From: Bacteroides sp. 43_108
GTDB taxonomy: Bacteria; Bacteroidota; Bacteroidia; Bacteroidales; Bacteroidaceae
Length of the DNA: 64,000 nt
Direction of reading: 5' to 3'
Assembly (NCBI GenBank): GCA_001915545.1
Contig: MNQS01000004.1
Location: 1-64,000 of the forward strand
The notes under the pieces are model-generated. The model saw only the letters and a program-made list of their open reading frames with translations, was not told the DNA's origin and made no database searches. Shown here piece after piece: positions 3,037 through 64,000 of the stretch. The position numbers and the translations under genes were made by a program. Within the stretch, counting starts at the first letter, position 1. Every line of letters begins with the position of its first letter.

Positions 3037-3176
3037 TTTTAAATTTAATTGTTACTACTGTTTATAATCATTTGTTCTTCATCAGCGATTCACAGACCGT
3101 GTTCCCAGCCAATAGGATACACTATCTACACACTGATTTTGGAGCGCTTTAACGCCCCTAGATAATAATCGGCTTG
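3037..3176 (-). promoter_or_regulatory. Long 5' leader of rplM, possible r-protein leader
   Basis: The promoter at 3177-3206 implies an untranslated leader of about 135 nt. It begins with a GC stem-loop (3141-3146 with 3153-3158, six pairs including one G-U), and the rest contains short complementary stretches. Ribosomal protein operons are often controlled by such leaders. That this one binds L13 or S9 is inference only. Confidence 0.35.
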
Positions 3177-9518: not shown

Positions 9519-10394
9519 ATGATACAATCAATGACCGGTTACGGAAAATGCGTAACAGAATTCAACGGAAAGAAAATTCATGCTGAGATAAAATCGCTCA
9601 ACAGCAAAGCGCTAGACCTGTCGTCCAGAATAGCTCCGCTCTACAGAGAGAAAGAAATGGAGATCAGAACATACATCACATCCAATCTTGAACGAGGCAA
9701 AATAGACTTCAATCTTTGGATTGAAAAGGAGGACGGAGCCAGCGCTACGCCTATCAACAAGACTATAGTAAACGAATATTACAAGCAGATAAAAAGCATC
9801 TGCAGCGAAACAGGCATACCTGAACCTATAGAATGGATGTCTACACTGCTTAGAATGCCAGATGCCATATCAAAAGTTGAAGCTGAAGAATTGTCTGAAG
9901 AAGAATGGGCTGCGGCAAAATCGGCTGTCGAAGGAGCTGTAGGCCAGCTTATGGAATTCAGAAAGCAGGAGGGATTGGCACTGTCGAAGAAGTTTACAGA
10001 GAAAATTACCAACATCGGCAATCTGCTCGCCATGATCGAACCATACGAGAAGGAACGTACCGAGAAAATCAAGCAAAGAATAGTTGAAGCTCTCGAAAAG
10101 ACTCTCGAAGTGGACTACGACAAGAACAGACTTGAACAGGAGATGATATACTACATCGAGAAGCTCGACATCAGCGAAGAGAAACAAAGACTAACAAATC
10201 ATCTCAAATATTTCATGGAGACTATGGCAGACGGCCATGGACAGGGCAAGAAGCTCGGATTCATTGCTCAGGAAATGGGACGTGAAATAAACACTACAGG
10301 AAGCAAGAGCAACAACGCAGAAATGCAGAACATCGTAGTGAAGATGAAAGACGAACTCGAACAGATTAAAGAACAGGTTCTCAACGTCCTCTGA
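9519..10394 (+). CDS. YicC family endoribonuclease
   Basis: YicC-family proteins are hexameric RNases; E. coli YicC cleaves small RNAs such as RyhB. The 291-residue product has the family start MIQSMTGYGK, and its C-terminal half contains the conserved GHGQGKKLGFIAQEMGREINT segment split by glycines. Length is typical. In many bacteria yicC is followed directly by gmk and then nadD. Here a 4.1-kb secreted-protein gene separates them, and yicC has its own perfect 16-bp terminator hairpin. Confidence 0.93.
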   Translation: MIQSMTGYGKCVTEFNGKKIHAEIKSLNSKALDLSSRIAPLYREKEMEIRTYITSNLERGKIDFNLWIEKEDGASATPINKTIVNEYYKQIKSICSETGIPEPIEWMSTLLRMPDAISKVEAEELSEEEWAAAKSAVEGAVGQLMEFRKQEGLALSKKFTEKITNIGNLLAMIEPYEKERTEKIKQRIVEALEKTLEVDYDKNRLEQEMIYYIEKLDISEEKQRLTNHLKYFMETMADGHGQGKKLGFIAQEMGREINTTGSKSNNAEMQNIVVKMKDELEQIKEQVLNVL

Positions 10395-10506: not shown

Positions 10507-10616
10507 AAGCACTCATAGTGAATATTACGAGCGCCCGCAAAAATCATTACACGCGCTCGTAAAAACTACCGCGAGCGCCCACAGCCTCAGAGATGAAGGC
10601 TCATACACCAATAAGG
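10507..10616. repeat. 22-bp phased array, locus 1 (five units)
   Basis: Nine-base GC-rich cores start at 10507, 10529, 10551, 10573 and 10595, exactly 22 bp apart: AAGCACTCA, GAGCGCCCG, ACGCGCTCG, GAGCGCCCA, GAAGGCTCA. The spacers are A/T-rich. The array fills the space between the yicC terminator and the promoter at 10640. The same element is at 41837 and 62670. A 22-bp period excludes a coding origin. Confidence 0.75.
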
Positions 10617-38467: not shown

Positions 38468-41353
38468 TTATTTTTTCTTTTTATTGAATTTGTATACTAC
38501 ATGCAGCAGGGCATATCTGTGGATGCTCCTGTTGAAAGACTCCACAATACCTGTGGCACTGACTTTTCTGTACGTACTGGACAGATTGCCGAGGATGTCG
38601 AACCCATCAAGCATGACTACAAGATTTCCGTTCATGAACCGCTTGCTCAGACGTGCATTCCATATCAGGTCGTCGGTGTTCATACTTCTGTCGTTATACC
38701 CCCTACGGCTGTACATAGTCAGATCCGTGGATACCTGGAAATCAAGCTGCAGGTCAACCTTTGCCGTAACACCGTAATCAAAGTCATAGGCGTTGAGAAC
38801 GTCTATATCCTTATTTTCGTTGTTCGAATTCAGATAGTGGAAATTACACTTCAACCCGAAGTCGTATTTCGACGAAGGACGATAATTCAGTCTTAGAGTC
38901 TCGTCTACATACAGATTGCCGTTTCTCATCTTCTCCGTTGCAACTATCGTTTCCGACGCATCGTCCACACCCACCATGTCAACGCTGTTCCAGTAGTTCA
39001 CTGAGGTGTTAGAATTAAAAGTCCACAGCTTCTTCTTGTCCAGCGGAAGGCTCCAACCGAGTTTTGCACCCGCGTTCCACGTACCGTTGACCGTACACGG
39101 AGTAAACGTCCTCACACCGGTCGACTTGTCATAGACATAGCTCATCGTTTCCTTGTTCTGTGTCAAACCGCCCGATACTCCGACATTGTACATCCTTTGT
39201 CCTGAAAGAGTCTTGCGGTAGGAAAAATTAAGCTTATGCATATAAGCGGCCTTCAGCGATGAATTTCCAACATAAATATTGAGCGGGTCACTTGTGTTGT
39301 ACATCACATCGTTCAGCAGCGATGGGATGCTTCTGTAGCAATTGTATGTGATGTCCGCACGGCTCCGTTTGTTGCGTACTACAAAATTCGCGTAAGGTTC
39401 AAAATAGAATTTTTCTTTATGCGGTGTATACAGATTGCCGGCACGTCGATAGTCCAAATCATATATTCCAAGATGGAACGGAAGTTCCATTCTTATCTCG
39501 TACGTATTTTCACCGCTTAAAATATTCTTTGAGAAGATGGCCCTTACCGTGTGACGCTGGTTGCGCTGTTTATAGTCATTCGTATTGTCGATGTCCATAG
39601 CAGAAAGCAGTTCATAGTCAAAAGGAAGACTTCCGAGCTTGTTCTCCGAATCTGCGCCCCATCCGTCAAGCTTATTCAACAGATAATACGAGGTGTTGCT
39701 GTTAGTCCATACCGATGAATACATATAGGAAATATTCAAGTTTGTTTCAGTATCGAACGCAATTCTGGCATCGGCGAAGACATTGAAATCGTGTTTTTCC
39801 ACCGATGCATCAGTATACTTGTTTCTGTAATCTGTAAAGGCGGATGCAGGATAGTCCAATCTGTAGTGGCTGAAATTTTCATTCCAATTGCCGAAATATG
39901 CATATCTCGCATTGAGACTATATACAATATTGGAAACCTTATACCCTTGATTAATCGACAGGCGTCCTGACAGATTATCGCCTTCGTCAAGGTTCGAAGT
40001 CATGAGTCTGTTTATAGCCATGCGCCGAATCAGTCCGTCGGGGTCGGGCGATGAAATGCTGTCCAACAAATCTTTGCCGTAAAGATCAGTCATGTCTTCC
40101 GAAAAAAGCGCGGAGACATAGCGGCTACGTCCTTTGTTCTTGTGATATTCGAAATGCGGCATCAAACTAACCCTATACGACGACTCCATGTTGAACCTCA
40201 GGCTGTGGTCCGTAACGATGTTCCATCCGCACGTGCGGCTGCTTCTGAATGCATTCTGATACGTGTTGCCTCCGGAAAGAAAGTTCGTCGTATTGCTTCG
40301 GCCATCCTGAGTATTGTCGTTGTGCGACACGTCCAGATTGCCGTTGCCCTTGAAAGTCCCGCTGCCGTCTATTGTATAATTGAGACCAGCACGCCTGTTA
40401 GTGATAGTTCCAGATGTGGAGGAATTTGGCGTCCAGTCGCCGCGCGTCCCAGGCTTGGAATAATCATTGAGGTTGTTGACGTTCGCATAGACGAACAGAT
40501 TCGAGTTCTCGGTCATTCTTAGTCCGAACACACGTCCCATGTAACTGTCCGAAGTACCGTATCCGCCCTCGGCATTGGCAATCCATCCGGTTACATACTG
40601 GCGCTTCATGGCAACGTCCATCACATACTGCTTGTACATAGGATTCTCGAAAAGAGCCGGTGCCGTACGCTCGTATACTTTCAGTTCCTTCACCATGTAG
40701 TACGGCAGGTTATCAAGCATCAGGCGGTTGTCGCTCGTAATGAAATCCTTGCCGTTGAGCAGGAGCACGTCCACCTGACGGCCGTTGACGAGGATAACGC
40801 CGTTGTCCTTCAACTCCGCACCTGGAAGCTGGCGTATGAGGTCATCGAGCATGGAACCTTCCGGCAGATTGAAAGCATCAGCGTCATACACCAAGGTATC
40901 GCCACGGTGATAGAACTTCACCTTCGTAGCAACCACCTTGACCTCATCGAGCGTATCGGCATTCTCTTCTGACGACTGGACAAAATCACGCTGCATATAC
41001 GTCACTTTGCGTATTTTGATGTCCCCTCCGCTCTTCCTGAGTTTTTTCACCTCGCAAGGAACCGTTACACTCTCATATCCTGGATGAACGAAACGCAGAT
41101 AGTACAGTCCCGGACGATATATGCTGAATTCATATGAGCCCCTGTAGCTGTCATACACCATATTCGACAAGGTAGAATCAAGCACCGCACTGTCGCTGTC
41201 CAGCAGATATACCTTCGCATCCTCAATCGGAGCCTTGGTGAATCTGTTGGCCACACGGCCGTAAAGAATGCTCTTTTTCCCGCTGTTCTGGGCTGTTGCC
41301 AATAACGGGAACAGCATAAAAAGCAGTAACGTCTGCAACAACTGTTTTTTCAT
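38468..41353 (-). CDS. Outer-membrane beta-barrel (TonB-receptor-like) protein, copy B
   Basis: A 961-residue paralogue of copy A with a signal peptide (about 1-21, ending ATAQ). A carboxypeptidase-regulatory-like beta domain follows (about 25-110, KSILYGRVANRFTKAPIEDA onward). The plug-like block (GSMLDDLIRQLPGAELKDN, VNGRQVDVLLLNGKDF) and a barrel ending in DGFDILGNL and a Lys-rich tail follow. No SusD or transport partner is adjacent. The upstream 956 bp hold repeats and operator-like palindromes that may control it. Confidence 0.87.
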   Translation of the reverse strand: MKKQLLQTLLLFMLFPLLATAQNSGKKSILYGRVANRFTKAPIEDAKVYLLDSDSAVLDSTLSNMVYDSYRGSYEFSIYRPGLYYLRFVHPGYESVTVPCEVKKLRKSGGDIKIRKVTYMQRDFVQSSEENADTLDEVKVVATKVKFYHRGDTLVYDADAFNLPEGSMLDDLIRQLPGAELKDNGVILVNGRQVDVLLLNGKDFITSDNRLMLDNLPYYMVKELKVYERTAPALFENPMYKQYVMDVAMKRQYVTGWIANAEGGYGTSDSYMGRVFGLRMTENSNLFVYANVNNLNDYSKPGTRGDWTPNSSTSGTITNRRAGLNYTIDGSGTFKGNGNLDVSHNDNTQDGRSNTTNFLSGGNTYQNAFRSSRTCGWNIVTDHSLRFNMESSYRVSLMPHFEYHKNKGRSRYVSALFSEDMTDLYGKDLLDSISSPDPDGLIRRMAINRLMTSNLDEGDNLSGRLSINQGYKVSNIVYSLNARYAYFGNWNENFSHYRLDYPASAFTDYRNKYTDASVEKHDFNVFADARIAFDTETNLNISYMYSSVWTNSNTSYYLLNKLDGWGADSENKLGSLPFDYELLSAMDIDNTNDYKQRNQRHTVRAIFSKNILSGENTYEIRMELPFHLGIYDLDYRRAGNLYTPHKEKFYFEPYANFVVRNKRSRADITYNCYRSIPSLLNDVMYNTSDPLNIYVGNSSLKAAYMHKLNFSYRKTLSGQRMYNVGVSGGLTQNKETMSYVYDKSTGVRTFTPCTVNGTWNAGAKLGWSLPLDKKKLWTFNSNTSVNYWNSVDMVGVDDASETIVATEKMRNGNLYVDETLRLNYRPSSKYDFGLKCNFHYLNSNNENKDIDVLNAYDFDYGVTAKVDLQLDFQVSTDLTMYSRRGYNDRSMNTDDLIWNARLSKRFMNGNLVVMLDGFDILGNLSSTYRKVSATGIVESFNRSIHRYALLHVVYKFNKKKK

Positions 41354-41447
41354 AATATCGTCAGTTATAAAGGTTTATAAAATTTTCAGCCCCATATCAG
41401 AAAGCCCCTTCTGCTTAAATTAGTAACAAAATGCATGCCACAAAACA

Positions 41448-41785
41448 AATCAATTGATTATCAACGGTTTACATTTTAGTACTAAATTTCAACTGTAAAA
41501 TTTCTTTACACTACTGTAAAATAACTTTACAATCTAAAGGCTATTCTACCAAGAAATAATCGCAGAGGCATATTACAAATCCCAATTACTGATTATCAAC
41601 ATATTAAGTTTTACATATCATATTAACAGTAATATATCTTTGCAACTCTAAGGAATAACTTCACAATTAAAAATCCCTTATACCTAAAACAGCAACAAAG
41701 ATATACACAAAACGAATCCATTGACTATCAACGTATTACACTTACATAAATCTTAACTGTAAAATAACTTTACAATACAGCCAAT
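41448..41785. repeat. Three degenerate ~133-bp tandem repeats
   Basis: The landmark GAYTATCAAC occurs at 41456, 41591 and 41723 (steps of 135 and 132 bp). Each is followed by an A/T stretch with TTTACA-like words and, about 35-60 bp on, by the palindrome described next. Copy 2 is the most diverged, and there the palindrome position reads TATCTTTG, a possible plus-strand -7 box (41635-41642). Confidence 0.6.
41494..41774. promoter_or_regulatory. Operator-like palindromes TGTAAA-N5-TTTACA (three copies)
   Basis: Perfect copies lie at 41494-41510, 41515-41531 and 41758-41774. The first two start 21 bp apart, two turns of the helix, as for cooperatively bound dimers. A -7 box on the minus strand, TATCTTTG (41696-41703), lies between them and the receptor at 38468. 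The binding protein is unknown; a response regulator is a reasonable guess. Confidence 0.55.
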
Positions 41786-41836
41786 TACATTTACTATTCA
41801 ACCAATAATTTCCAAGAACGTCAAACGAAAAGACAC

Positions 41837-41946
41837 GAGCGCCTGAAATTTTCATTTCGAGAGCTCGCAAAGGAAATTCCGAGGGCTCAGAAATCAAACG
41901 ATGAGCCCTCGGAAAGATAATTGTGAGCCCTCGGAATAAACACAAC
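41837..41946. repeat. 22-bp phased array, locus 2 (five units)
   Basis: Nine-base cores start at 41837, 41859, 41881, 41903 and 41925, each exactly 22 bp from the last: GAGCGCCTG, GAGAGCTCG, GAGGGCTCA, GAGCCCTCG, GAGCCCTCG. The 13-bp spacers are A/T-rich and not alike. This is the clearest of the three loci. The 41947-42110 stretch that follows is AT-rich with nothing recognisable. Confidence 0.85.
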
Positions 41947-42110
41947 ACTTAACCGGATGGCTATTTTATAGGTCATAAGAATGTCAGCTTAACTAATAAA
42001 TATTAATTATCATTTCTATAAAAAAGCGAATACAAGCTATAGCATAGAACAGAACGATCAGGATACAAATGGCGAATTAGACTTTTTTAGTTATAAAACA
42101 TTACAAAAAG

Positions 42111-42178
42111 ATAAAATTTTAATTTTTATATTAATTTATGAGGAATAAAATTTTAATTTTTATATTAATTTATGAGGA
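42111..42178 (+). repeat. Perfect 34-bp tandem duplication
   Basis: Two identical 34-bp copies (42111-42144 and 42145-42178), followed by nine more matching bases, end directly before the -7 box at 42186. The unit is almost all A and T, with one GAGG. It looks like a recent duplication upstream of the promoter. Confidence 0.9.
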
Positions 42179-42185
42179 ATAAAAT

Positions 42186-42193
42186 TACCTTTG
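42186..42193 (+). promoter_or_regulatory. -7 box of the secreted orphan gene
   Basis: TACCTTTG fits TAnnTTTG; the expected -33 position falls in the 34-bp repeat and has no TTG. The implied leader of about 110 nt supports the start at 42310 rather than 42172. Confidence 0.5.
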
Positions 42194-42309
42194 CATCAAT
42201 AAAAGATATATTAAATAAGTCGCTTAATAAGCAATACATCAAGGGCAATAGCTACGAAGTAATCTATTGTATAAAAACAGTCAATAGAATCTCAAAAAAG
42301 GAACTTAAA

Positions 42310-60452: not shown

Positions 60453-61976
60453 TTACTGCAATACGGGTTCTCCGCCGACCTCTTCGTAGCCGTCGTGATC
60501 GGCATTGACAGGAGCCTCTATAACATTGGTTGTGACATTGCTGTTTTCATCTGAATACATGTTTAACATCCTGTCCCAAAACTCCTTCTTGGTGTCCCAC
60601 AATGTCAGGGTCAGTTGCTGATTATCTTGCTGGTTCCCGCACTTCAAATCCCCCAAATATGCGTTATGGGTTATATCGAGAGCCGTCATCTTGTTGCCAT
60701 GACACCACAAATATTTAAGCTCTTCCAAAGTACTGACATCCAACGAGACAAGTTGATTATCGCAGCACTCCAAATCCGTCAGATTGGTCAGCTTGGTTAC
60801 ATCAAGGGCAGTCAGTTGATTACCGGCGCAAATCAAAGTCGTCAGACTGGTCAGCCCGGTTACATCAAGGGCAGTCAGTTGATTATCGCTGCACACCAAA
60901 GTCGTCAGACTGGTCAGCTTGGTTACATCAAGGGTAGTCAATTGATTACCCATGCAATCCAAAATCTCCAGATCGGTGAAGTACTCAATGCCGGCAAGGC
61001 TGGTAATGTTTTTATTTTGCAAAGGCAAGAAAGTTACCCAATTCCTTATTATTTGCATTCGGTTATACTCATCCAGGGATACGGTGCCATCGGGGTTCGC
61101 CCTCCATTGGATATTTGGGTTGAATTCTTTCACGGCATTGGCAAACGCCGCATTGAGGGCCTCGGTGAAATTGTCATCCTGTACCAGTGCGCCCAGGTTG
61201 GTAATCTTTCCGGCGGTGAAGGTCACCTCTTTTTGGGTGGTCTTGACGTATGTCTTGCCGCCTTCACCCATATAGTTCAGGGTAATGCCGCCCGTCAGCG
61301 TGTCGGGAGCCACGACGAAGTAGTACTCCTCGCCTTTCGTGAAGGTTCCCGTCAGCGTTACCGACCGGGAAGCGCTTCCCGTGGCGGTCAGCGTACCATC
61401 GGCGATGGTATAGGTCAGCCCGCCTGCCAGTGCGTCGCTTTCTTGGTTGGCGGTCAGGGTAACTTCCGTCACACCCTCTGCGTCCACGGTGAACTTGGCC
61501 AGGGCGCAGAGGTTCTGGAACGTCAGATTTTTGCTGCCGCCCGTCGCCTGTGCCCACGAGGGGTTCAGCCCATTGGCAAAGCCGCCTGCCGTGGCTGTCT
61601 GCGTGGCGGGCAGGGTGAAGGTGATGGCAGTGTTGTCGAGGGTCAGCGTCCCGTCGTCGGTGTAGGGATAGAAGGCGGTGTAGGTATCGGTCTCGGCTGC
61701 CTCGCCTTTCAGGGTGGCGGTGCTGCCGCTGACTTCGTTTGCTTCAAACTTGCAGATGGTTTCCGTTCCGTCGTAGATGGCTACCAGGTCGCCCTGCGTC
61801 CAGTTTACGGCATGGCCGTCCTCGCCCAGCGAGGTACGTGTCTGCGGCATTCCGGCGGTGAAGGTCATGTGTACCTTCCCCGTGCTGCCGCTTTCGTTGT
61901 TCTCAAGGATTTCTTCGTTGCCGCAGGCTGCCAACAGCAGGGCCAGTGCGGCGATGGTCATACATTTTATACTCAT
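60453..61976 (-). CDS. Fimbrillin-like lipoprotein with leucine-rich repeats
   Basis: A 507-residue surface lipoprotein. The lipobox LLAACG places the lipid on C18. Residues about 30-270 match the fimbrillin-like fold found in Mfa/FimA-type proteins (TQGDLVAIYDG, AFYPYTDDGTLTLDN, VVAPDTLTGGITLNY). About 300-480 hold at least five 21-residue leucine-rich repeats of the type LTALDVTxLTxLTxLxCxxNQ. It may act in adhesion. The N-terminal half is visibly more GC-rich than the rest of the window. I use the ATG at 61976, just before the lipoprotein signal. The 67-residue gene ends 17 bp upstream, so the two are co-transcribed. Confidence 0.83.
   Translation of the reverse strand: MSIKCMTIAALALLLAACGNEEILENNESGSTGKVHMTFTAGMPQTRTSLGEDGHAVNWTQGDLVAIYDGTETICKFEANEVSGSTATLKGEAAETDTYTAFYPYTDDGTLTLDNTAITFTLPATQTATAGGFANGLNPSWAQATGGSKNLTFQNLCALAKFTVDAEGVTEVTLTANQESDALAGGLTYTIADGTLTATGSASRSVTLTGTFTKGEEYYFVVAPDTLTGGITLNYMGEGGKTYVKTTQKEVTFTAGKITNLGALVQDDNFTEALNAAFANAVKEFNPNIQWRANPDGTVSLDEYNRMQIIRNWVTFLPLQNKNITSLAGIEYFTDLEILDCMGNQLTTLDVTKLTSLTTLVCSDNQLTALDVTGLTSLTTLICAGNQLTALDVTKLTNLTDLECCDNQLVSLDVSTLEELKYLWCHGNKMTALDITHNAYLGDLKCGNQQDNQQLTLTLWDTKKEFWDRMLNMYSDENSNVTTNVIEAPVNADHDGYEEVGGEPVLQ
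60640..60965 (-). repeat. 63-bp tandem repeats encoding the LRR units
   Basis: About five 63-bp units, the middle three nearly alike, encode the 21-residue LRR repeats. Such near-identity at the DNA level makes unit number prone to change. Confidence 0.8.
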
Positions 61977-61993
61977 TTTCCCATTATTATAAA

Positions 61994-62197
61994 TTACCAA
62001 ACCACTTTGTCATCGTCTTCAAAACCACGGTGTTCTGCACGAGGGTTATAGTCATCACCACTGGCATCCAACAAAAAATTACTGCCCTGCACTTCGATAA
62101 TCTCACACTCCGGAGCCAAATAATCCTTACGCTCCGACAACGAAAAGTCATTAACGTTTTTCATCTGCTGTAAATCTGTTTTTAAATTTTCTAACAT
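61994..62197 (-). CDS. Small protein upstream of the LRR lipoprotein
   Basis: A 67-residue protein that starts with a helix-forming MLENLKTDLQQMKNVNDF and has the central block YLAPECEIIEVQGSNFLLDAS, shown here in part. It ends acidic with an aromatic tail (DDDKVVW). The block APxxExxEVxxxxxLxxS is, from memory, common in short Bacteroidales proteins next to surface proteins, but I know no function. It lies 17 bp before the lipoprotein start, behind a long leader. Confidence 0.65.
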   Translation of the reverse strand: MLENLKTDLQQMKNVNDFSLSERKDYLAPECEIIEVQGSNFLLDASGDDYNPRAEHRGFEDDDKVVW

Positions 62198-62324: not shown

Positions 62325-62377
62325 CATATTTTAATAAAAACGATATATTTTACGCGCCCGTTAGCGTCTGCATGTAA

Positions 62378-62402
62378 TGTGTGTGTGTGTGTGTGTGTGT
62401 GT
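62378..62402. repeat. (TG)12 dinucleotide repeat
   Basis: Twelve TG units plus one T lie in the leader of the 67-residue gene, read as CA in the transcript. Slippage could change its length, and such repeats can tune expression. Confidence 0.9.
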
Positions 62403-62590
62403 TTATACAAAAATTGCAGACAGCCAAATTTTCAGGCAAGAAAATTGCCTGTGCAGAATCGGCGGAATTGCGTCCGATTCCAGAAACTGCATCTATCATA
62501 TAAAAAAAGCTGTGTGCCATTCTTCGTACAATATATATATACGTAAACAATAAATCCAAGTCCGCCCTCGGGCTGCAACTTAAATCTGTG

Positions 62591-62598
62591 CAAAGATA
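62591..62598 (-). promoter_or_regulatory. -7 box of the 67-residue gene / LRR operon
   Basis: TATCTTTG on the minus strand fits the consensus; the -33 position (62618-62620) reads TGG, a weak match. The leader would be about 390 nt and carry the TG repeat and the hairpin at 62285. Confidence 0.45.
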
Positions 62599-62669
62599 CA
62601 ACAAAAAAAGCTCATGGCCAGCCGACAAGCATGATTTTTTCGTCCGCAAACAAAACGGCGGCGAAAGAC

Positions 62670-62757
62670 GAGGGCGCAGAAACAAAATTGCGAGCCCTCG
62701 CGGACCGAACTGCGAGGGCTCGCAATTTTTGACGCGAGGGCCCGCAATCTACGATTC
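62670..62757. repeat. 22-bp phased array, locus 3 (four clear units)
   Basis: Cores start at 62670, 62692, 62714 and 62736, exactly 22 bp apart: GAGGGCGCA, GAGCCCTCG, GAGGGCTCG, GAGGGCCCG. Weaker matches in the same register lie at 62758, 62780 and 62802. Units 2 and 3 are inverted copies that form an 18-bp perfect stem (62684-62701 with 62712-62729) followed by T, so this part could also terminate transcription. Confidence 0.8.
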
Positions 62758-62869: not shown

Positions 62870-64000
62870 TCAACGCTTGATTACAGACTCTGTTGAATCA
62901 ATTCCGTCTGCAGTTACCTTGACGTAGTATACACCGGCAGAGCATGCACTCATGTCGATAGTACGAACTTCGCCTGCACGTACAGACTTGGCAGAAGCTG
63001 TTGTCACAAGCATACCGTTGGCGTTGAACACTGCGTATGTCACGTTCGATGCATCAGCACCGAGAGTAACATTGACGCTTGTATTTACAGCCTTAGGATA
63101 TACGTTGACAGCACGGTCTGCATCAACATCTTCGATGCCAGTTGCCGAAACGACATTAACCTTCACCTGTGCTGTAGTCTTAGTACCCAATGCGTCTTCT
63201 GCTGTAAGAGTGAGGTCGGCAGTTCCGATCTTGCGTCCGGAAATTACGAGCTCATCTGCAGAAGCGAAGATTGAAGCAAAGTCGTTGTCTGGCATAGATG
63301 CAGTGAATGTCATCTTGTCGCCGTCTGGATCAGTGAAGAGCGATGAGAATGCAATGACGTCTGTAGTCTTGCCTACTGCAACGTCGATTGTCTCAGAACC
63401 GACAAACTTAGGTTCGCGGTTTGTCTTCTCTACATTATATGCAACAGATGTTGCAGCTGCGTTTCCAAGAGCATCCTCTGTGTTGATTGTGAAGCTGTGC
63501 TTGCCTGCATCACCGAAATCAGGAGCAAGCTTGACAACAAGCTCGAGTGAGCTTCCGGCAGGAACATCTACTGTATTGTCTGCTGCGACAGCTTCAGCAT
63601 AGTCAGAACCGTTGAATGTACGGCAGCTTTCGATTGAAGCAATTCCATCTACATCAACGAGAGATGCCTTGAATGCATCACCTTCAGCATCTTCAACGCG
63701 GATAGTTACAAGCGCTGTAGAGTTCTCCTTTACTGTTGGAGTTTCCTCCGGACCAGTAACAACTGGAGCTGCATTCTTGTCAAGATATATAGGATAGTTG
63801 ACAATCTTGTTTGCAGGGTCGTTGCTCTTTACTACGAGCACAGCCTTGTTGCCGGTCTTGTAGTAAGTGCTTGCAGCGTTGATTTCGAAACCTACCGATA
63901 CGCTTTCGCCAATCTGGAGTTCGCCTTCGGTGTCGGAATCGGCAGTGAGTGCAATCCAAGGCTTGCCTTCTTCCTTCTCGACGCAAGTCATGAAGTAACC
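62870..64000 (-). CDS. Type IX-secreted surface protein, C-terminal part (cut by the window)
   Basis: The reading frame runs off the right end of the window; 377 codons are visible. They hold cadherin/Ig-like repeats with Asp-rich turns (DAEGDAFKASL, FTDPDGDKMTFTA), several segments of the type LVVKLAPDFGDAGKHSF, and a C-terminal type IX sorting domain (NVYPKAVNTSVNVTL to YVKVTADG). Such proteins are exported by the PorV/PorU machinery encoded at 23313-28469. The enzymatic part, if any, lies to the right. The ATG at 63991 is internal. Confidence 0.8.
   Translation of the reverse strand, partial: GYFMTCVEKEEGKPWIALTADSDTEGELQIGESVSVGFEINAASTYYKTGNKAVLVVKSNDPANKIVNYPIYLDKNAAPVVTGPEETPTVKENSTALVTIRVEDAEGDAFKASLVDVDGIASIESCRTFNGSDYAEAVAADNTVDVPAGSSLELVVKLAPDFGDAGKHSFTINTEDALGNAAATSVAYNVEKTNREPKFVGSETIDVAVGKTTDVIAFSSLFTDPDGDKMTFTASMPDNDFASIFASADELVISGRKIGTADLTLTAEDALGTKTTAQVKVNVVSATGIEDVDADRAVNVYPKAVNTSVNVTLGADASNVTYAVFNANGMLVTTASAKSVRAGEVRTIDMSACSAGVYYVKVTADGIDSTESVIKR

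Follow-up and report, generated by a model that had tools for sequence, protein, structure and literature searches.

Palindromic boxes at a 22-bp pitch form a dispersed intergenic element in Bacteroides sp. 43_108, and the pitch recurs with other core sequences in related genomes

The array that begins at position 41837 of the window (the whole stretch of DNA analysed, 64,000 nucleotides in length) is one member of a family of dispersed elements that are intergenic, non-coding and composed of dyad boxes at a 22-bp pitch. This finding proved wider than the preliminary description of the array had claimed, in that the 22-bp period recurs in relatives with other core sequences. We put at about one half the probability that the arrays are, as a whole, REP-like extragenic elements in dispersed copies, with boxes predicted to be sites of a dimeric DNA-binding protein. 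The arrays point to an undescribed class of repeat element; in the open-licence literature (subscription literature lay mostly outside the search) we found neither palindrome arrays phased at 22 bp in this bacterial group nor, in agreement with the preliminary description, a named Bacteroidales element like the array.

The array at 41837 and its sister arrays

Five cores follow one another in exact 22-bp steps, at 41837..41845 (GAGCGCCTG), 41859..41867 (GAGAGCTCG), 41881..41889 (GAGGGCTCA), 41903..41911 (GAGCCCTCG) and 41925..41933 (again GAGCCCTCG, letter for letter as in the fourth core), and are separated by unlike 13-bp spacers, which confirms the arrangement first reported from 41837 to 41933. 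The core pattern proposed for them stood only in part: the five cores are there, but the strict form GAGSSCYC fits only three of the five, whereas the near-palindrome YGAGnnCTCR fits four exactly and the first core with two mismatches. Sister arrays lie at 10507..10603 (locus 1; cores at 10507, 10529, 10551 and 10573 and a weak fifth at 10595) and at 62670..62744 (locus 3; cores at 62670, 62692, 62714 and 62736), the cores and arrays being without assigned strand. Together with the copies in a relative described below, they bear out the claim of a dispersed family. The proposed helical phasing holds as an exact 22-bp phase but not as the use of exactly one face of the DNA; because a pitch of 22 bp exceeds two helical turns (10.5 bp each) by one base, successive sites would wind slowly round the helix.

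The window was scanned for CGAGnnCTCG, with at least six of the eight fixed bases matching and in runs of at least three units, at lags from 12 to 40. Lag 22 gave three runs (10506, 41836 and 62669), every other lag in this range gave none, and no run of at least three units appeared in 200 dinucleotide shuffles of the window, which speaks against random occurrence, named in the preliminary description as a possible refutation. The pair pattern with one mismatch had 15 matches in the window, both strands counted, against 0.36 expected.

All three window arrays are intergenic. The array at locus 2, that at 41837, sits between two divergent gene starts (41353 on the minus strand, 42172 on the plus strand), while that at locus 1 has yicC on one side, ending at 10394, and on the other, from 10743, a gene whose start is signal-peptide-like. 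At locus 3, one neighbour, on the minus strand and ending at 62870, carries a Por secretion tail, and the other neighbour is a minus-strand LRR/fimbrillin-like gene with its start at 62000. The longest reading frames across the three arrays are 61, 68 and 88 aa; a 111-aa frame (62350-62685, minus strand) overlaps the first bases of the locus 3 array and we take it as spurious.

Other repeats were also seen in the window. At 41483-41797, in the gap that separates the array from the outer-membrane gene on the minus strand, a 51-nt repeat occurs in three copies about 130 bp apart (67 and 76% identity to the first copy), with TGTAAAn5TTTACA-like dyads and with TATCTTTG in one copy. A perfect 34-bp tandem repeat (2.2 copies) at 42111-42186 includes the start codon of the gene that begins at 42172, whose ATGAGGAATAAAATT start it duplicates, and a 63-bp tandem repeat (3.2 copies) is present at 60751-60950 within the leucine-rich-repeat gene.

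The same core family in UBA4361 and other relatives

The closest of 301 sampled genomes to the source of the window were 76% identical to it in alanyl-tRNA synthetase DNA. Genome contigs were scanned for three CGAGnnCTCR cores in 22-bp steps, with at least 120 stretches found; among those listed, most came from one Prevotellaceae genome, UBA4361 (G001), others from rumen or gut Bacteroidales, and some from unrelated bacteria, many of these being simple tandem repeats. Counted genome-wide, adjacent GAGnnCTC pairs numbered 250 in UBA4361, 102 in G004, 47 in G005, 31 in G002 and 16 in G003, with 9, 4, 3 and 2 in four further genomes. When 399 genomes of the family of UBA4361 were sampled, any match was found in 40 and five or more in 11; in a sample of the order (295 genomes, including UBA4361 and a few family members), 11 genomes had a single match and UBA4361 alone had more than one.

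The anatomy of the element was examined in 81 UBA4361 arrays from 615 kb of loci. Exactly four cores were present in 79 of the 81, the loci having been chosen by a three-core pattern, and 235 of the 240 core pairs less than 80 bp apart were at exactly 22 bp. A typical element has these four cores, flanked on either side by some three degenerate 22-bp units, the flanks carrying a second motif at 22 bp that is mirror-imaged between the sides and clear over approximately 78 bp, with a weak information excess that reaches 200-300 bp. Of 320 cores, 309 carry GG or CC as their central dinucleotide, and in about 2% that dinucleotide is complementary. The outer units are identical in orientation in 61 of 80 arrays, compared to 37 expected, and the element therefore has a direction. 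A census covered 32 loci: 25 arrays had no ORF of at least 150 aa, and the seven that did were in loci of G066, G102, G076 and G091, with 54 to 60% G+C.

Recurrence of the pitch with other core sequences

Other palindromes (CTCRYGAG, AAACn6GTTT, GAAACGTACGTTTC and AAACTnnAGTTT) build the 22-bp arrays of further relatives. CTCnnGAG at 22 bp, the reversed control pattern, reached at least five matches in 12 of the 399 genomes; a direct search of ten among them showed 123 matches in G154, 49 in G246, 23 in G051 and 5 to 19 in the others, with none for the opposite pattern, GAGnnCTC. In G017, a genome in one 3.7-Mb contig, a sample without any 22-bp match to GAGnnCTC or CTCnnGAG had a 22-bp peak of 42 compared to about 18 at other lags, which arose from palindromes such as AAACAATATTGTTT and CCTAAGTATTATACTTAGG. 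Across this genome there are 219 pairs of AAACAATATTGTTT (AAACn6GTTT) versus 25 for the reversed control, and the array pattern was absent from 14 of 14 other genomes of the genus. Two G017 arrays that were printed have outer boxes of one family joined to five boxes of another, resembling the arms and centre of the UBA4361 elements, and one-base phase slips occur in G017 arrays (L291 short and L295 long, in the five inner boxes; also L307). A search of six genomes for AAACn4GTTT gave 40 pairs in G305 and 20 in G241, each with a control of 0, and none in the other four.

A lag scan of words in 15 genome samples placed the 22-bp three-unit count above each of 11 other lags in seven (G154, G241, G017, G305, G089, G692 and G620); 22 bp did not lead in the remaining eight. 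Judged by eye, palindromic arrays are present in G017 and, among eight genomes printed, in G241, G305 and G223; the matches in G253, G297, G089 and G692 looked like other things, those in G620 were ambiguous, and the evidence in other 100-kb samples was weak or absent. Palindromes were also sought irrespective of sequence, with a strict threshold set first and four looser ones thereafter. With 5 of 6 pairs required, lag 22 gave four arrays in G017 and one each in G241, G305 and G223, other lags averaging at most 0.08 per source; the count was 0 in the other 13 sources, including the window, where the boxes are imperfect, and the array-bearing G154. Three other settings gave three or four in G017 and at most one in G241 or G305 (other-lag averages up to 0.15), and this test detected no array in four genomes drawn at the level of the order. 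Since the palindromes of the relatives differ, and since the G017 pattern is absent from its 14 congeners, the spacing recurs and the sequence turns over. It is the distance rather than the sequence that recurs, and searches by sequence therefore miss the arrays.

Conservation and copying

Four arrays occupy matching places in UBA4361 and G003. Their half-sites differ at 10 of 128 positions, their centres at 10 of 32 and their spacers at 58 of 144, with length and 22-bp register intact, in line with the conservation of boxes and spacing suspected from the window. The contrast between half-sites and spacers is an upper bound, since the cores themselves served to find the arrays, similarity decided the orientation and one array (L043/L390) rests on one flank; the count excludes an array near L007/L020 whose flank match falls in a repetitive stretch. 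Of 15 UBA4361 array sites with any flank match in a 440-kb sample of G003, five had an array nearby. Three of the other ten were predicted at the end of a fetched stretch and one had its flanks on different contigs; in the comparison of L101 with L020, both flanks lie intact side by side in G003 with no array. Another palindromic element, unrelated and about 150-200 bp long (TTTAGGAAAGAAATTAGAATAATT...), was seen on comparing L002:3812-4019 with L033:6590; it is present in UBA4361, missing at the matching G003 site, and has similar sequences in L111, L094, L015, L017 and L090.

Two arrays in G305, oppositely oriented and both with inverted-repeat-like ends, share 96.7% identity over 122 bp; the sequence directly beside them is unlike, and a separate 200-bp repeat lies near both. 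Such near-identical copies show that copying happens. Inspection by eye showed no target-site duplication at either copy. The end pattern has five occurrences, four of them within these copies, and is too diverged to tell whether the element of G305 has an autonomous partner. The 200-bp repeat has AGAAGCTGTTTTGAAT at its ends and is found near three G305 arrays (L407:1240-1441, L408:1181-1383 and L409:1208-1404; about 96-97% identical). In three genomes, 16S rRNA genes were seen with an array approximately 0.6 to 1.2 kb upstream (L409, L410, L415 and L421), and the FopS sRNA is about 0.3 kb from an array in L415 and L416.

Comparison with known repeat and binding-site systems

Y1 transposases are known partners of REPs. 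The Y1 family PF01797 matched in six of nine genomes searched and had no match in the array-bearing G017, G241 and G332, of which two carry arrays in a single contig; Y1 transposase (RAYT) is thus not the general partner of the arrays. The arrays are nonetheless palindromes of high copy number, extragenic and species-specific, with several families in a genome, all of which they share with REP/BIME elements. The arrays differ from REPs by a 22-bp tandem pitch, with several shorter boxes in a row. A GTAG or CGTC tag beside the palindrome is a REP feature named in the title of one paper (PMC3733652).

The BrickBuilt MITE of Porphyromonas gingivalis, according to the available part of its description, has a 23-nt tandem unit, AGAYCATARTATCCTCTCRTRTG, and 19 loci in one strain, and 22-nt repeats are mentioned for strain W83 with locations previously unreported (PMC4596501). 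Like the arrays, BrickBuilt is intergenic and dispersed, with a short tandem unit and inverted ends (PMC4596501), but its 23-nt units are described there without spacer regions, whereas the period here is 22 bp, the units are degenerate and the palindromic cores differ from AGAYCATARTATCCTCTCRTRTG. REP elements and this minisatellite MITE are the nearest kinds, and neither is known to have the architecture of a 22-bp palindrome array.

Other systems were less similar. The iterons of plasmids are phased binding sites about two turns apart, as the sites predicted here would be, but the arrays are dispersed over a chromosome-like window and not placed at a replication gene. No replication initiator was found near the three arrays (six of seven nearby proteins had Pfam matches and one had none), and a plasmid origin was rejected, the locus having no plasmid match. 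ParB sites (parS) have the sequence TGTTTCACGTGAAACA, to which the window had 0 matches with up to three mismatches. At Rfam gathering thresholds, the window contained the L13 leader (3087-3158) only.

A REP-like element with its own binding protein and the alternatives to it

If the arrays are REP-like elements, each box would most likely bind one dimer of the protein, and a spacing near two turns could allow contacts between successive dimers and hence a cooperative nucleoprotein array. Half-sites and pitch would be kept, with spacers and central bases free to drift, as in the four arrays of the two relatives; the family would spread within a genome by copying, of which the near-identical copies in one relative are an instance, and the core sequences may be renewed differently from species to species. 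By analogy with REPs, the cognate protein might also handle dispersal, any nucleoid or regulatory effect being secondary; this is the weakest step. More tentatively, and with the odds against it, a chromosomal system across the family could inherit the architecture alone (dyad boxes every 22 bp, strong at the centre and fading in the arms), the recognition sequence being rewritten in each species together with the putative cognate protein, which would amount to a phase-locked nucleoprotein code without a fixed alphabet. If these ideas are correct, Prevotella relatives hold roughly ten to a hundred copies per genome, as estimated from pair counts, of a seemingly undescribed repeat class, and a known array would give a direct route to its protein and to the speed at which protein and site co-evolve.

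Behind the REP-like element with its own protein, and ahead of functionless slippage, we rank an organisation of the host chromosome, which we consider unlikely: the arrays could be landmarks, set at intervals along the chromosome, for a nucleoid or condensin-like host protein with which their sequence co-evolves. The conserved half-sites and length would suit this role, as would the placement of the arrays. A crude gene caller put 61 of 80 UBA4361 arrays between two called genes, two within a called gene and 17 at locus ends; the 61 fell between tandem (33), divergent (20) and convergent (8) genes, in line with the summed gap lengths of 65.3, 30.2 and 12.8 kb, so that they are indifferent to gene direction. 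They are equally blind to export signals: the link to exported-protein genes proposed in the preliminary description failed, since by a simple heuristic 24 of 61 genes downstream of UBA4361 arrays began with a signal-peptide-like stretch compared to 25 of 80 controls (p = 0.37), and a regulation of exported genes was rejected. In the first 1.56 Mb of G017 (the part listed), 42 array places, with arrays within 200 bp taken as one, have a mean spacing of 37 kb, and 3 of 41 gaps are below 10 kb versus about 9.7 under random scatter. However, this count covers one of several G017 array families, and gaps of 149 and 171 kb occur. Absence of the pattern from 14 congeners would be fast for a structural code of the host, and the near-identical copies are a sign of recent spread.

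A functionless, neutral minisatellite with slippage in 22-bp steps appears improbable. The arms of two orthologous elements do differ by an exact indel of 22 bp, or one unit, and BrickBuilt, in the part of its description available, offers the precedent of a 23-nt minisatellite inside a MITE (PMC4596501). Slippage, however, leaves unexplained why one period is common to different sequences in many genomes, and it agrees poorly with a core number mostly fixed at four and with half-sites that change less than spacers.

We give slightly less credence still to tandem operators of a transcription regulator of the neighbouring genes. Phased palindromic sites are a common operator plan, and each window array is upstream of at least one gene start, but the UBA4361 arrays between convergent genes are about as frequent as gap length predicts, the downstream genes have no export bias and their products look mixed by eye (housekeeping and surface proteins), and one regulator could not easily switch its code between congeners.

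RNA or cruciform hairpins, such as terminators or processing signals, are very improbable: on both strands the RNA of the array has a better fold than its shuffles (z of -6.0 and -5.4) and one inner G017 box pair is complementary in 45 of 54 arrays versus 26.0 expected, but the former is accounted for by the palindromic consensus that all boxes share and the latter by the existence of two unit types, while UBA4361 units 1 and 4 have complementary centres in 13 of 80 arrays versus 37 expected, the arms of one UBA4361 element are no more complementary than shuffled arms, the outermost G017 pair shows no covariation (28 of 54 versus 28.2 expected, a count that rules out compensatory change there) and 41300-42300 holds no terminator-like site. 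Complementarity between units is not selected, and hairpins in RNA are therefore disfavoured.

Palindromes at the same pitch in phage terminase genes

A phage origin of the arrays was rejected, as the viral matches mostly belong to a separate feature of genes for the phage terminase small subunit (TerS) and the others look like GC-rich repeats. The strict form of the palindrome test gave nine arrays at lag 22 in viral loci, which had themselves been selected by a 22-bp pattern. Three GGAGnnCTCC boxes at 22-bp steps lie within TerS genes at L122:7149-7976, at L123:5167-6012 and in other viral loci; TerS identity was confirmed by PHROGs for two loci, and by eye the L122 palindromes are read in different frames. 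The triple occurs in 73 viral loci; in 70 of them it falls within a long frame, and in 65 that frame also encodes a TerS-like GNxNA motif. These palindromes resemble the window arrays in their pitch and triple boxes and differ from them in that they are inside phage coding sequence, whereas the window arrays are intergenic. The triple in TerS genes is a candidate packaging site (pac).
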